From positions 1-50,277 of the forward strand of contig JAQVHS010000010.1 of NCBI GenBank assembly GCA_028696075.1: a stretch of 50,277 bases of DNA, read 5' to 3'. Position numbers and translations under genes: made by a program. Under the pieces are notes generated by a model that was given only the letters and a program-made list of their open reading frames with translations, did not search any database and was not told the origin of the DNA. The first letter of the stretch is position 1, and each line of letters begins with the position of its first letter. Origin of the DNA: Candidatus Gastranaerophilales bacterium. Lineage in GTDB: Bacteria; Cyanobacteriota; Vampirovibrionia; Gastranaerophilales; JAILCC01. Of the stretch, positions 42,358 through 48,038 are shown piece after piece.

Positions 42358-42897
42358 ATGATGAAAAAAGGATTTACTTTTGCGGAATTAATGATATCGC
42401 TGGTAGTAATAGCCGTAATTACCGCTATTTTGTATCCCACTATAGCCGAACTTGCCCCTAATAATAATAAGCACTTATTTAAGTCAGCCTATAAAACATT
42501 AGAAATGGTAATAAGCGAGGTAGTAAATGACCCTAATGCCAGTCCCAACGGAATAATAGGGGAACAAGAATTATGCATAAACATAGCATCAAAATTGAAT
42601 ACAAAAGGAGCAACTCCCGATAAAGTACTTTGTGCAAAAGCATACCCGGTAGATGCTGCTAACCCTTCTTTTGTAACAACAAACGGGATGAGATGGTTCG
42701 TATCACATAAAAGCGGAAATAAATTCACCATAACCGTCGATGTGAATGCCTCAAATAATAACGTGGGCGGCGGCTACCATCCTGATGAAGATGCATATTC
42801 ACAAGATACATTCACCATCACTGTTTTAGATACAGGCAAAATAGAAACCATAACAGGTGCAGGTTACAACCACTTAACTGATTCCAGCCCTGATTAG
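42358..42897 (+). CDS. Type IV pilin-like protein (prepilin N-terminus)
   Basis: A 179-residue protein with a short leader ending in Gly and the mature N-terminus G|FTFAELMISLVVIAVIT; the conserved Glu5 and hydrophobic helix fit type IV pilins or type II secretion pseudopilins. Two Cys (LCINIAS, LCAKAY) may pair. The C-terminal part ends with VLDTGKIETI, echoing the other two pilin-like genes here (DGMITYY, DGKITYF). This style of pilin is frequent in Vampirovibrionia genomes as I recall them. It stands alone with its own promoter-like TATAAG upstream. The secretion or pilus machine is not in the window. Confidence 0.82.
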   Translation: MMKKGFTFAELMISLVVIAVITAILYPTIAELAPNNNKHLFKSAYKTLEMVISEVVNDPNASPNGIIGEQELCINIASKLNTKGATPDKVLCAKAYPVDAANPSFVTTNGMRWFVSHKSGNKFTITVDVNASNNNVGGGYHPDEDAYSQDTFTITVLDTGKIETITGAGYNHLTDSSPD

Positions 42898-43030
42898 AGT
42901 AAAAATTACACGGAAAAATTAACGTATTGTAAAAAAATTATTACAAAACTGCAATATTTACGGTTTTCTTAGCAATTTTTTTGTTTTATAGTTATTAAAT
43001 ATATTGTAAGGTATATTTCTTGAGTTGGTC

Positions 43031-44050
43031 ATGCAGGTACAATTTAATACTACTATCAAAAAAGGTTATCCAAAAAATAACGATAATAGAAGCCAAACAA
43101 TTACCGGGGCTTCCTTTAAAGGCAGCTCCCTGTTATCAAAAGCAGGAACTGTAAATCAGGTCCTGATGAACAAATTTGAAAACGGCGGTTTCTTTTTAGA
43201 GTTTTTCTGTCTTGATTTTATAGGACTTGTATTCCCCCGTGTATGGCAGGCATTTAACAGAAATAAAGCGGAATTAGGGCACTGGAATGTTATGGCGGGA
43301 ATTGAAGAACTTTTAAGAGAGTCCATCACGGGTCCCAGTATGTTTCTTATCCCTATGGTGGCTTTAGCTTTTGCCGGAAGGTTTTTAGGCAAGGGTGCAA
43401 AAATAAATACCAACGTAATCAACAAATTCACAAAAATATTTAGAGAATCAGCGTCTAACTTGGCAAATTCCGATATGGCTAAATTGAGTAAAGAATTCAC
43501 AGGCAATCTGTTTGATGATTTATTTGCCAAACACATAAAAAATGCCGGCAAAATCGCAGGTGAAGCTGCTGACGGCATAAGCATAGGAAAATACCGTGAA
43601 AAATTCTGTAATATGATTACGGAAGCTCAAGGTACTATTACAAAACAACGGCGCAAAGAATTAACAGGCGAATTTTCCAATCTTATAAGCGATATAAACT
43701 CAAGATATACCAACTCTCTTAATACCAGAGCAATCCCGTTTGTTAACGGCAAAGGTAAAGACTGCGCAATGCTTGCAGGGGATTTATTTGAAGATATACA
43801 AAAATATGCCCAGGATATAATACCCACAGCAAAACTAACGGCGAGCGAACTTACCGAAAAATCTCCTGATGCGATAAAAGCAAGCATTGACCAAATAAGC
43901 AAGATGAGAGAAAACGGCAGAAGATTTTTGACAACACTTAATATCCTTTCTTTAGCAGGAGTTTTATCACTTTTGCCGAAGATTTATCAACGTGCAAAAA
44001 GCAACCCTGCGTTAGAAGGCTTAAAACATGAGAAAGGAGGAAATGCGTAA
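43031..44050 (+). CDS. Membrane protein of unknown function, first of a coupled pair
   Basis: A 339-residue protein without a recognised family. After a polar N-terminus carrying TGASFKGSS (about 23-31), a hydrophobic region (FFLEFFCLDFIGLVFPRVW) and a second (PSMFLIPMVALAFAGRFL) precede a helical, charged middle of about 180 residues, then a C-terminal hydrophobic segment (LTTLNILSLAGVLSLLPKIY). The SFKG-type N-terminus is one I associate with Gastranaerophilales proteins. The start is uncertain: ATG at 43031 or TTG at 43025. Its stop overlaps the next ATG (TAATG), and the next gene's ribosome-binding site lies inside this gene, so the two are made together. Topology matches the partner. Confidence 0.68.
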   Translation: MQVQFNTTIKKGYPKNNDNRSQTITGASFKGSSLLSKAGTVNQVLMNKFENGGFFLEFFCLDFIGLVFPRVWQAFNRNKAELGHWNVMAGIEELLRESITGPSMFLIPMVALAFAGRFLGKGAKINTNVINKFTKIFRESASNLANSDMAKLSKEFTGNLFDDLFAKHIKNAGKIAGEAADGISIGKYREKFCNMITEAQGTITKQRRKELTGEFSNLISDINSRYTNSLNTRAIPFVNGKGKDCAMLAGDLFEDIQKYAQDIIPTAKLTASELTEKSPDAIKASIDQISKMRENGRRFLTTLNILSLAGVLSLLPKIYQRAKSNPALEGLKHEKGGNA

Positions 44051-44928
44051 TGGATCCGATATCAGCAGCAAAACCTCTTTCTCAACAATCAATTCTTAGG
44101 AAGTCATTTGCAAAAGTAGGCGAATACATACCTAAAAAAATAGGTGATGTATTCGAACTTAATAACAAAGGTAATCTTGGCAGATACTCCCTGATTTTCT
44201 TCTCTATGATATTTGTAATGGGAGTAAGGATGTACAAAGCCAGAGATGCACACGAAAGAAGAGAAGCACTGACCAGAGATGCTTCTACAATCCTTGCCTG
44301 CATGGGCGGCGTACCCGTATTAAAAAATATTATGTCTACAGCGTTAGATAAAGCAACAAAAATCCCAACCGCTGCAAACGGCAAATTTTTCAAAAAAGCA
44401 ATTTCCTATGACGGCTTGGCTGACTGGTATTCCAAAGCTGATATTATGGAGCAAAAAGTCCTTACAGTAGCTAAAAACATTGATAAAAACGGCGGAGATG
44501 TAGTAAAAGCCTTTAATTTACTCGGCGATAACGCAAAAGGCTGTGTAAATACCATACTTAATGGCAAAGACGCTACTTCAAAAAATCTATTAACCGCTCT
44601 TGAAAACATAGCTGAAAAAACTACAAACTTCACAACAGGCAGCGGAAAATTAAAACAGGCCTGTGATACATTAACGGATATGTTGTCTAACAGTAAGAAC
44701 GAATTAGTAAAATCAGCAAAAAGGTTAAAAGCTGTACCCGACATTGTGAGTTTACTTCTAATCACATTGGTTTTAGGCTGGGGAATACCCGCATTTAATA
44801 TTAAATTAACCAGAAAAAAGGTAAAATCCAACGAAAACAAACCTGCTCAAAATCATATTGAACCTGCTATATCAGCTCCCCAACAAACAGTAATAAAAGA
44901 ATTTTTTCAAAAAGCGGCTTTAAAGTAA
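44050..44928 (+). CDS. Membrane protein of unknown function, second of the pair
   Basis: A 292-residue protein whose layout repeats that of the preceding gene: hydrophobic segment SLIFFSMIFVMGVRMYKARD (about 56-75), second weak one around ILACMGGVPVLKNIM, a helical charged middle (about 110-225), then a C-terminal hydrophobic segment IVSLLLITLVLGWGIPAF (about 235-252) followed by a Lys/Asn/Pro-rich tail. A strong AAGGAGG (44034-44040) precedes the ATG. The two are probably divergent paralogues forming a complex, which is an inference from layout and coupling. No named family. It ends 1 base before the convergent HD-GYP gene stop. Confidence 0.68.
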   Translation: MDPISAAKPLSQQSILRKSFAKVGEYIPKKIGDVFELNNKGNLGRYSLIFFSMIFVMGVRMYKARDAHERREALTRDASTILACMGGVPVLKNIMSTALDKATKIPTAANGKFFKKAISYDGLADWYSKADIMEQKVLTVAKNIDKNGGDVVKAFNLLGDNAKGCVNTILNGKDATSKNLLTALENIAEKTTNFTTGSGKLKQACDTLTDMLSNSKNELVKSAKRLKAVPDIVSLLLITLVLGWGIPAFNIKLTRKKVKSNENKPAQNHIEPAISAPQQTVIKEFFQKAALK

Positions 44929-44929
44929 T

Positions 44930-46075
44930 TTAATAAATATCTTTGACCAAATTCTTATCTTCAGAAAAATACTGCCTTAAAATACTGTAATCAATATAGT
45001 ATTTTTCAGGATTAGCCTGCGCCTGTTTAAATATACCTTCGACTTTGAGGAATAATTTCACCAGCTCAGGGTCAAACTGCGTACCCGAACATCTTTCAAT
45101 CTCCGCTTTTGCAACTTCATGAGATAAAGCTTTTCTATATGAACGACTGGAAGTCATTGCATCATAAGTATCGGCAATAGCGATAATCCTGGCGCTTAGC
45201 GGAATTTCTTCACCTCTGATTCCAAGGGGATAACCTTGTCCGTCCCAACGTTCATGGTGTGTATTTAACCACTCTGATACAGTTGATAACTTACGAATAC
45301 TCGTTAACATCTTCTTACCCTGCCCCGGATGACTCTTCATGATTTCATATTCATCATCGGATAATTTACCGGGTTTGCATATAATATTATCGGGTATACC
45401 GATTTTACCTATATCATGCAGTAACCCTGCTGTTTCGATTTCTTCAAGAAATTTATCGGTAACGTCATCCATATGCTTGGTCAAAATTAAAGAATAAAGC
45501 GTAACGCGCAAAGAATGTCCGTGAGTGTAGGCATCTTTAGCATCCAAAGCATTAGAAATGGATTTAATAGTGGTATAAAAAAGCTCTTTCAAATCAATAA
45601 GCATATCTTTTTTATTTTTCGAAAGCTCAAACACATCAATCCCGTTTTTGACAATTAACATAAGTTCTTCAGGGTCAAACGGCTTCATAATATATTGGAA
45701 TAGATTACATTTATTGATACTGTCAACCAATATTTCCAAATCAGAATGTCCTGTTAAAAGCATTCTAATCATATCAGGATATTTTTGAGCAGCCTCGCTA
45801 AACATTTCTGTTCCCTGCATAGCGGGCATTTTTTGGTCGCTTATAACCAGAGAAATTCTATCGCCCTGCTCTTCAATAACTTTTAAGCCTTCAACACCGT
45901 TTGTAGCGGTCAAAATATCGTATTTAGAACGCAAAGTACGCTTTAGCAACGCCAAATTATTAGGTTCATCATCAACCAATAAAACAGTGTGTTTTTTATC
46001 TTTTTTATTAGCTTCCAGAATCACTCTATGGAAGGTTTCTAAATATGATTCGTGAAACTCGTCAGACTTTAACAT
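44930..46075 (-). CDS. Response regulator with intact HD-GYP domain
   Basis: A 381-residue protein: N-terminal helix, receiver domain (HTVLLVDDEPNNLALLKRTL; phospho-acceptor in LVISDQKMPAMQG), then a complete HD-GYP phosphodiesterase domain: AYTHGHSLRVTLY (first His present), GLLHDIGKIGIPD, MKSHPGQG, THHERWDGQGYP and IIAIADTYDAMTSSRSYRKA. It should hydrolyse c-di-GMP. It resembles the regulator at 22031-23017 throughout (VDDEPNNLALLKRTLR versus VDDEENNLQLLNRTLR), so the two are probable paralogues. No kinase is adjacent. It lies as a single gene. Confidence 0.92.
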   Translation of the reverse strand: MLKSDEFHESYLETFHRVILEANKKDKKHTVLLVDDEPNNLALLKRTLRSKYDILTATNGVEGLKVIEEQGDRISLVISDQKMPAMQGTEMFSEAAQKYPDMIRMLLTGHSDLEILVDSINKCNLFQYIMKPFDPEELMLIVKNGIDVFELSKNKKDMLIDLKELFYTTIKSISNALDAKDAYTHGHSLRVTLYSLILTKHMDDVTDKFLEEIETAGLLHDIGKIGIPDNIICKPGKLSDDEYEIMKSHPGQGKKMLTSIRKLSTVSEWLNTHHERWDGQGYPLGIRGEEIPLSARIIAIADTYDAMTSSRSYRKALSHEVAKAEIERCSGTQFDPELVKLFLKVEGIFKQAQANPEKYYIDYSILRQYFSEDKNLVKDIY

Positions 46076-46535: not shown

Positions 46536-47237
46536 CTAATAATAGGTAATCATACCGTCATTCAAAATCCTGTCACCGCAGCCTATCCAATCCGCACAGG
46601 TTGTATCACTCTTGCTTGCAGGGCAGCAAGCGCCGTCTTTTGTGGAATTAAGAGGCCTTAAGCTCTCTACTAAAGAACCGGGGGCAGTAGTATCTTCATC
46701 AAAAGTAAAATAAAAAATATCTTTACCAATAAAATTAGGACCTTTTTTACCGTTAATATCCACAGCAACATAATCAATCCCGGTACCATCGGCTTGAGTA
46801 TTTCCTATTCCAATAATCATTCCGTTTTTCAAAATAATTGTACGGGCGTCATTAACATAATAAGTCCTTCCTTCGTTATTTCTAGCAATTCTTGCTATAT
46901 TGGCAGCCTGGGCTGAAAATTCAATAGCCGGAGGTCTAAATGGCAACATTCTTGCTGCTCTGGCGTGGGGTACAACCTTCATCTTTTTTTCTATAGCCTG
47001 TTGTAGAAATCCTGCACTACCGTTATTAGTCTCATCAATTTCACCTTTAGCACGCATAGTGGGAACTGCTCTTTGAACCAAATTCAACTCCGTATAAATC
47101 TTTTTATAAGAAGTCGCTAAAACCGATTTTTCATTATCCGCCACAATAGAAGGCAGCATTATCATAGCAATGCCTGCAACAAGCACCATTGCTATAACCA
47201 CCTCTAATATTGTAAAACCTTGTAGATATTTTCTCAT
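46536..47237 (-). CDS. Type IV pilin-like protein
   Basis: A 233-residue protein with a standard prepilin start (YLQG|FTILEVVIAMVLVAGIA), Glu5 present. The C-terminal part has Cys-rich GACCPASKSDTTCADWIGC and ends RILNDGMITYY. A central segment (DINGKKGPNFIGKDIFYFTF) is nearly the same as in the upstream gene (DLNAQKGPNTIGKDIHYFWI), so the two are paralogues. It starts 9 bases after that gene and 19 before mrnC. It is a minor pilin or pseudopilin; its function beyond this is unknown. Confidence 0.85.
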   Translation of the reverse strand: MRKYLQGFTILEVVIAMVLVAGIAMIMLPSIVADNEKSVLATSYKKIYTELNLVQRAVPTMRAKGEIDETNNGSAGFLQQAIEKKMKVVPHARAARMLPFRPPAIEFSAQAANIARIARNNEGRTYYVNDARTIILKNGMIIGIGNTQADGTGIDYVAVDINGKKGPNFIGKDIFYFTFDEDTTAPGSLVESLRPLNSTKDGACCPASKSDTTCADWIGCGDRILNDGMITYY

Positions 47238-47246
47238 TTAACCACC

Positions 47247-48038
47247 CTAAAAATATGTTATTTTTCCGTCTTCGAACACTCTGTATGTACATCCAAATAA
47301 ATTTACTTTATCCAAACCTCTTTTTGTAGGCAGAGTAGTATATTCTCCCTCATTATTAATCACTCCGCAGTCCAACCCGTCAACTTCACCAAACGGAATA
47401 ATACCTTCCTTATTCACAATCCAAAAATAATGAATATCCTTGCCGATGGTATTAGGACCTTTTTGAGCATTCAAATCCACTTCTATAATACCGCAAACAG
47501 GCAAGGAATTATTAGCAGATGCAAGATAATCGGACATGTCGGCATTACATAGATGATTATAAACAACATTTACAGATGCCCCGTTTTTTAGTACTGCAGC
47601 AGCCATAGTATCTTGTGAAATACCAACTATATCTGCTTCATAGTCAAATCCTGTCTTGTTTAAAAATTCTCGTTTATTGAAATATTCGCTACCGTAGTAA
47701 TCTTCATATTTCTCCGCATTAGCTCCGACAACATCATTTTCATTATCATAAGTAACAATGGGCTCAAGATACTTAACCAACTCATCTCTAAAGCATTTAT
47801 TACTTGCTGCCCCGGCTGCGTCCGCCGAACATACGGTAGTATAATCACTGTGATTTTTGGCCAAAATCACAAGCATAGCTTGTTGTATGTCATTATTAAC
47901 TTTTTTCAGCTGGGTAGAAAAAAGTGACTTTTCAGAGCTTTTCATAATAGAAGGGATGACAAATGTACCAACAAGCACAAAAATTACCATTGCGGTTAAT
48001 ATTTCCATAAGGGTAAAAGCGCTAAATTTTTTCTCCAA
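47247..48038 (-). CDS. Type IV pilin-like protein with Ala before the cleavage site
   Basis: A 263-residue pilin-like protein. The N-terminus (EKKFSA|FTLMEILTAMVIFVLV) has Phe1 and Glu5 but Ala rather than Gly at -1, which is unusual and may slow prepilin peptidase cleavage. The globular part contains three or four Cys pairs (TTVCSADAAG, NKCFRDEL, HLCNADM, PVCGIIEV, GLDCGVI, FGCTYRV) and ends RVFEDGKITYF. It heads a unit with the second pilin-like gene and mrnC. Confidence 0.83.
   Translation of the reverse strand: MEKKFSAFTLMEILTAMVIFVLVGTFVIPSIMKSSEKSLFSTQLKKVNNDIQQAMLVILAKNHSDYTTVCSADAAGAASNKCFRDELVKYLEPIVTYDNENDVVGANAEKYEDYYGSEYFNKREFLNKTGFDYEADIVGISQDTMAAAVLKNGASVNVVYNHLCNADMSDYLASANNSLPVCGIIEVDLNAQKGPNTIGKDIHYFWIVNKEGIIPFGEVDGLDCGVINNEGEYTTLPTKRGLDKVNLFGCTYRVFEDGKITYF

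Follow-up and report, generated by a model that had tools for sequence, protein, structure and literature searches.

Two overlapping genes that encode membrane proteins of similar layout raise the question of whether their products are subunits of one complex and, if they are, what kind of complex this might be. The genes, here called P1 and P2, lie in a window of 50,277 nucleotides (the whole stretch of DNA that was analysed) from a Candidatus Gastranaerophilales bacterium. The Gastranaerophilales are non-photosynthetic relatives of cyanobacteria that live in animal guts and other habitats. A sequence-only reading of the window had described the genes as a translationally coupled pair whose products may form a hetero-oligomer, and had singled them out as a candidate for an undescribed system.

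Two overlapping genes for membrane proteins of common layout

The features of the locus are collected in Table 1. The TAATG overlap and the ribosome-binding sequence within the first gene, from which coupling had been deduced, are both present, and a single base is common to the P1 stop codon TAA (44048-44050) and the P2 start codon ATG (44050-44052). The ATG at 43031 is the best start for P1, as it coincides with the starts of homologs, and use of the TTG at 43025 is improbable. A single-sequence search detected P1 relatives in 53 of 60 relatives, and a profile search detected them in 232 of 241 Gastranaerophilales genomes. P1 and P2 are real genes and not chance ORFs.

Table 1. Coordinates of the P1/P2 locus, its neighbours and F-x-G-type tails (window positions unless a locus is named)
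Feature	Coordinates	Strand	Remarks
P1	43031..44050	+	339-aa membrane protein, first module
P2	44050..44928	+	292-aa membrane protein, second module
TAATG	44048..44052	+	P1 stop overlapping P2 start
AAAGGAGG	44033..44040	+	ribosome-binding sequence for P2, inside P1 gene, 9 nt before ATG
SFKG (F-x-G motif)	43112..43123	+	flexible N-terminal tail of P1; F29 invariant in 27 homologs
P1 hydrophobic segment 1	43187..43243	+	aa 53-71; invariant D62, P69, R70
P1 hydrophobic segment 2	43322..43378	+	aa 98-116; after conserved RE..TGPS
P1 hydrophobic segment 3	43928..43984	+	aa 300-318; end of long C-terminal helix
P2 hydrophobic segment 1	44176..44232	+	aa 43-61
P2 hydrophobic segment 2	44290..44346	+	aa 81-99; after conserved E..R(E)..TRD
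P2 hydrophobic segment 3	44731..44787	+	aa 228-246; homologous to P1 segment 3
P2 C-terminal tail	44890..44925	+	phenylalanines; F within last 10 residues in 58/70 homologs
HD-GYP regulator	44930-46075	other strand than P1/P2	downstream
Pilin-like genes	42358-42897; 46536-47237; 47247-48038		around the pair
F-x-G-type tail examples	window 43112-43123; L221:589-1437, L221:1456-1863, L221:15835-16887		
F-x-G-type tail examples, further	L168:2597-4435; L026:2984-3913; L231:13422-14924		

Each protein has three hydrophobic segments, defined as hydropathy peaks, two of them N-terminal and one C-terminal, which flank a charged helical middle region, and conserved charged residues lie near the segments. 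The layout claimed to be common to the two proteins is borne out by the correspondence of their peaks. An odd number of segments, three per protein, would separate the two middle domains, one on each side of the membrane, yet both are positively charged, and some of the segments may therefore not cross it.

P1 and P2 are distant paralogs

Pairwise comparison of P1 with P2 by BLASTP gives no match, and the likeness of the two proteins becomes visible only with profiles. A profile-profile comparison of 16 P1 and 14 P2 homologs gave P 6.7e-4, and hhalign with 78 P1 and 70 P2 modules aligned the N-terminal module with a probability of 95%, P 2.6e-8 and a score of 64.7; none of 100 column shuffles scored above 19.7, and the reversed profile scored 25.3. 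This alignment covers the F-x-G tail and continues across both N-terminal hydrophobic segments. The C-terminal hydrophobic segments also align, with their order in the proteins kept (P 1.2e-5, score 30.8, shuffles no higher than 14.8). In the middle region the profiles give no significant alignment, apart from local direct matches of the P1 profile. In several species this profile matches P2 halves directly (L078, 4e-5; L127, 7e-5; L131, 3e-5), and it also matches the separate P2 of L155 (2e-5). Judged from these alignments, P1 and P2 are true, distant paralogs; the earlier reading had asked for a profile comparison and had staked its claim of likeness on it, and homology was found at both ends of the proteins.

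P1 and P2 occur together throughout the order

Among the 241 Gastranaerophilales genomes, P1 is present in the 232 mentioned above (224 of the 231 good ones) and P2 in 235. The difference between the two counts consists of weak matches that fall on a sister family, Q, described below: three genomes without P1 (G021, G223 and G237) match P2 only weakly, and all three carry Q, and the weak P1 matches in G003, G006, G019 and G126 lie in Q-like frames. The genomes that lack a strong P1 are the same set as those that lack a strong P2, and no genome clearly with only one of the two was found among the 241. The expectation that the pair always occurs together, against which a lone P1 or P2 would have counted, thus agrees with the genomes.

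Wherever a split locus could be resolved, P2 follows P1 immediately on its 3' side, and in the 48 split loci with a nearby P2 the genes overlap in 39 and are 0-10 nt apart in 7 more. The partnerless entries in the split-locus count are Q proteins together with a third paralog and a truncated second record of the first P1, both from genome G013; two L202 pairs that overlap beyond the counting limit were also counted as partnerless. The third paralog of G013, a divergent P1 (L044:1764-2888, L012:3437-3913), is encoded directly after the P1-P2 pair, overlaps P2 by 4 nt and sits on a very long branch of the tree.

Named relatives carry the labels Candidatus Gastranaerophilales, Candidatus Adamsella avium and Candidatus Melainabacteria. 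Outside the order, 16 sampled genomes of the class have relatives. These too are P1/P2 pairs whose genes adjoin or overlap, and some genomes hold several pairs; none were found outside the class. In L065 (613-3024) P1 seems to stand alone, fused to NAD synthase, but this case was rejected as a scaffold artefact in which a run of N joins the two. The contig concerned is labelled Planctomycetes bacterium GWF2_42_9 and carries a Gastranaerophilales-type P1; it is probably mis-binned and mis-scaffolded.

Repeated interchange of split and fused forms

Much of the order's largest family encodes P1 and P2 fused in one frame, as proteins of about 630-790 aa. The analysis covered 72 fused sequences. 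Genome G016, from another family, encodes one split pair and one fused pair. Parsimony on a tree of 78 P1 modules requires seven changes between split and fused forms, at least five of them forced by well supported branches; the tree comes from a quick search without bootstrap and is arbitrarily rooted, and the direction of the changes, fusion or fission, is thus not fixed by it. Interchange on at least five occasions points strongly to a functional unit of 1:1 stoichiometry, and repeated in-frame fusion is better support for a 1:1 complex than translational coupling is.

A sister family in which each protein holds both modules

Q proteins, of about 520-590 aa, consist of a P1-like half followed by a P2-like half, and their genes often come as tandem pairs with a gap of between a few and a few dozen nucleotides. 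With P1/P2 they have in common the order of the two modules, the F-x-G tail and a PR....RE signature, and the Q profile reaches the C-terminus of P2 (E 1.7e-6). They differ from P1 and P2 in that each protein holds both modules and in being distant in sequence; they are likewise undescribed. Only one Q gene, of 533 aa, is found in the window's genome (L221:8314-9915 on contig C1, G000:C1 about 198.3-199.9 kb), whereas many relatives have the tandem pair. Outside the order, genome G266 encodes a split Q-like pair beside a P pair.

Q is present in all 33 examined genomes with a clear P1/P2 pair. Four near-complete genomes of the order (G007, G096, G186 and G239) lack P1, P2 and Q together, and other genomes without P1/P2 keep Q, so the relation is one-sided. 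Q was found to be absent only where P1/P2 are missing, in 4 of about 12 genomes as against 0 of 33, which is suggestive and not proof of a connection.

A predicted fold without relatives in the libraries searched

AlphaFold2 folded the natural fusion L004 (594 aa, 55 sequences) with a mean pLDDT of 82.2 and a pTM of 0.80, with low confidence confined to the N-terminal tail, the linker between the halves and one loop; for P1 alone the pLDDT was 74 and the pTM 0.65. The fused form, the only form of the pair that was folded, is predicted to be one compact helical body to which each half contributes three hydrophobic helices and a helical extramembrane domain, and its pTM is suggestive of contact between P1 and P2.

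The fused model has no significant match by Foldseek in the PDB (best E 0.38) or in BFVD (best E 0.08). Profile searches gave no significant match either, with a best E of 0.032 among PDB sequences and of 0.0024 among the phage proteins of PHROGs, the latter to a helical stretch. In Pfam-A and NCBIfam, P1, P2, one fused form, Q and the relatives from outside the order all stay under the curated cut-offs, and over 55 homologs there are only scattered matches of single members. Literature searches found nothing on these proteins. The proposal of an undescribed system stands as far as sequence, fold and literature were searched: P1/P2 are a protein family not described before and confined to one clade, and their predicted fold is unseen in these libraries. 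What is new is the protein family and the predicted fold; the arrangement, paralogous subunits with overlapping or fused genes, is ordinary. P1/P2 would be a near-universal complex of Gastranaerophilales with no describable relative in sequence or fold among the libraries searched, and its conservation and restriction to one clade make it a good entry to the peculiarities of the cell envelope of this class. The natural P1-P2 fusions offer a ready single-chain construct for structural work.

Genomic context and alternative explanations

The gene neighbours of P1/P2 differ between families; the context is dispersed, P1/P2 therefore appear to be self-contained, and an assignment of function from neighbours was rejected for this variability. 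Three pilin-like genes cluster around the pair in the window. The earlier reading had suggested looking for co-occurrence with pilin or HD-GYP genes in related genomes; this link turns out to be local and not general. A role for P1/P2 in a type IV pilus or type II secretion machinery, for which the flanking pilin-like genes and those near three other loci speak, is quite improbable, since a pilin-like gene lies within 2.5 kb in only 4 of 23 loci, three of which are the window and its closest relatives in the same family (about 1.2 genes would be expected; by the same rule pilin-like genes occur on average about once per 90 kb in the sampled genomes). In addition, neither a pilin-type N-terminus in P1 or P2 nor a pilus domain of Pfam or NCBIfam was found. 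It is hardly credible that P1/P2 are the c-di-GMP output or the partner of the downstream HD-GYP regulator: the genes adjoin in the window, but the regulator is encoded on the other strand and one is found near only 1 of the 23 loci, the window itself.

The main rival to a scaffold is a small transporter or channel in which the paralogous three-helix halves, possibly in opposite orientation as in dual-topology heterodimers, enclose a pseudo-symmetric pore. Two homologous halves with three hydrophobic segments each, recurrently fused, and conserved charged residues close to these segments are what such a protein might show, and the odd number of segments per half fits inverted halves, although the charge bias gives no clear support to an inversion of the SMR type. 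Paralogous two-gene SMR transporters, for example EbrA/EbrB and MdtI/MdtJ, have four-helix subunits of about 110 aa that lack a large soluble domain. They resemble P1/P2 in having overlapping or adjacent genes and paralogous membrane subunits, which in SMR transporters work as a heterodimer, but no relation in sequence, profile or fold was found. The large charged helical domains and long flexible tails of P1/P2 are atypical of small transporters, and no substrate genes were found near the loci. MATE, EAAT and POT transporters, the top Foldseek matches, are helical membrane proteins as P1/P2 are, but match the fused model at chance level (E 0.38 or worse, TM-scores of about 0.1-0.13, the best match at about 0.13), with no real similarity. 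We therefore regard a transporter or channel as rather unlikely. Translational coupling alone is no proof of contact, and P1 and P2 might merely be co-expressed and act separately; repeated fusion, joint absence and the single compact predicted body make this improbable.

A model for a probable P1/P2 complex

The explanation that we favour, and consider probable, is that P1 and P2 are ancient paralogous subunits of one obligate 1:1 membrane complex, which would probably be a scaffold with docking motifs on flexible tails. That they form an obligate heterodimer is very likely from the sequences and the model; the hetero-oligomer proposed at the outset is backed by profile homology, constant adjacency or fusion, joint absence and at least five changes between split and fused forms. 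A scaffold or docking role, taken by itself, is possible and rather doubtful, and the evidence does not directly favour it over a transporter. P2 would be made on the mRNA of P1 immediately after P1 and assemble with it during synthesis, and the complex would be located in the inner membrane. There it could act as a structural or organising platform whose tails, with the N-terminal F-x-G motif and the C-terminal phenylalanines, dock partners, possibly including the sister Q proteins. We infer a membrane platform because the genomic context is dispersed, the flexible tails carry conserved short motifs and the large helical domains resemble a partner surface. A wider version of this model makes P1/P2 and Q the hub, in the membrane, of a docking system specific to the clade; the F-x-G tail would mark the proteins of a single membrane-attached assembly, which a few lineages would have lost entirely. 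This version seems to us a long shot.

F-x-G tails on other proteins and candidate correlates of the pair

Proteins of other kinds (examples in Table 1) can also begin with a short tail of the form M-K/Q-I/V-x-x ... (S/P)-x-F-x-G/S, among them a glycogen synthase-like and a diaminopimelate decarboxylase-like protein, both recognised by eye. As a genome-wide tag in the window's genome, the loose pattern shows no excess, with 6.8% as against 6.8% in an internal control window. A stricter rule, set after the examples had been viewed and with some clearly spurious matches, selects 11 of 347 and 9 of 291 proteins where the pair is present, in two genomes. The corresponding figures are 6 of 326 for a genome that lacks the pair and 4 of 334 for a control taken from a different class; these counts are only a lead, and no statistical excess was found.

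Two candidate envelope or motility correlates of the pair were rejected, being present with or without it and leaving its distribution unexplained: of the 20 genomes tested, all have Omp85 and 19 have FliF-type rings. The window's genome and several of its relatives encode two different FliF/YscJ ring proteins (here G000:C3:203748-204272 and G000:C6:48510-49031), which suggests two flagellar or secretion-type basal bodies.
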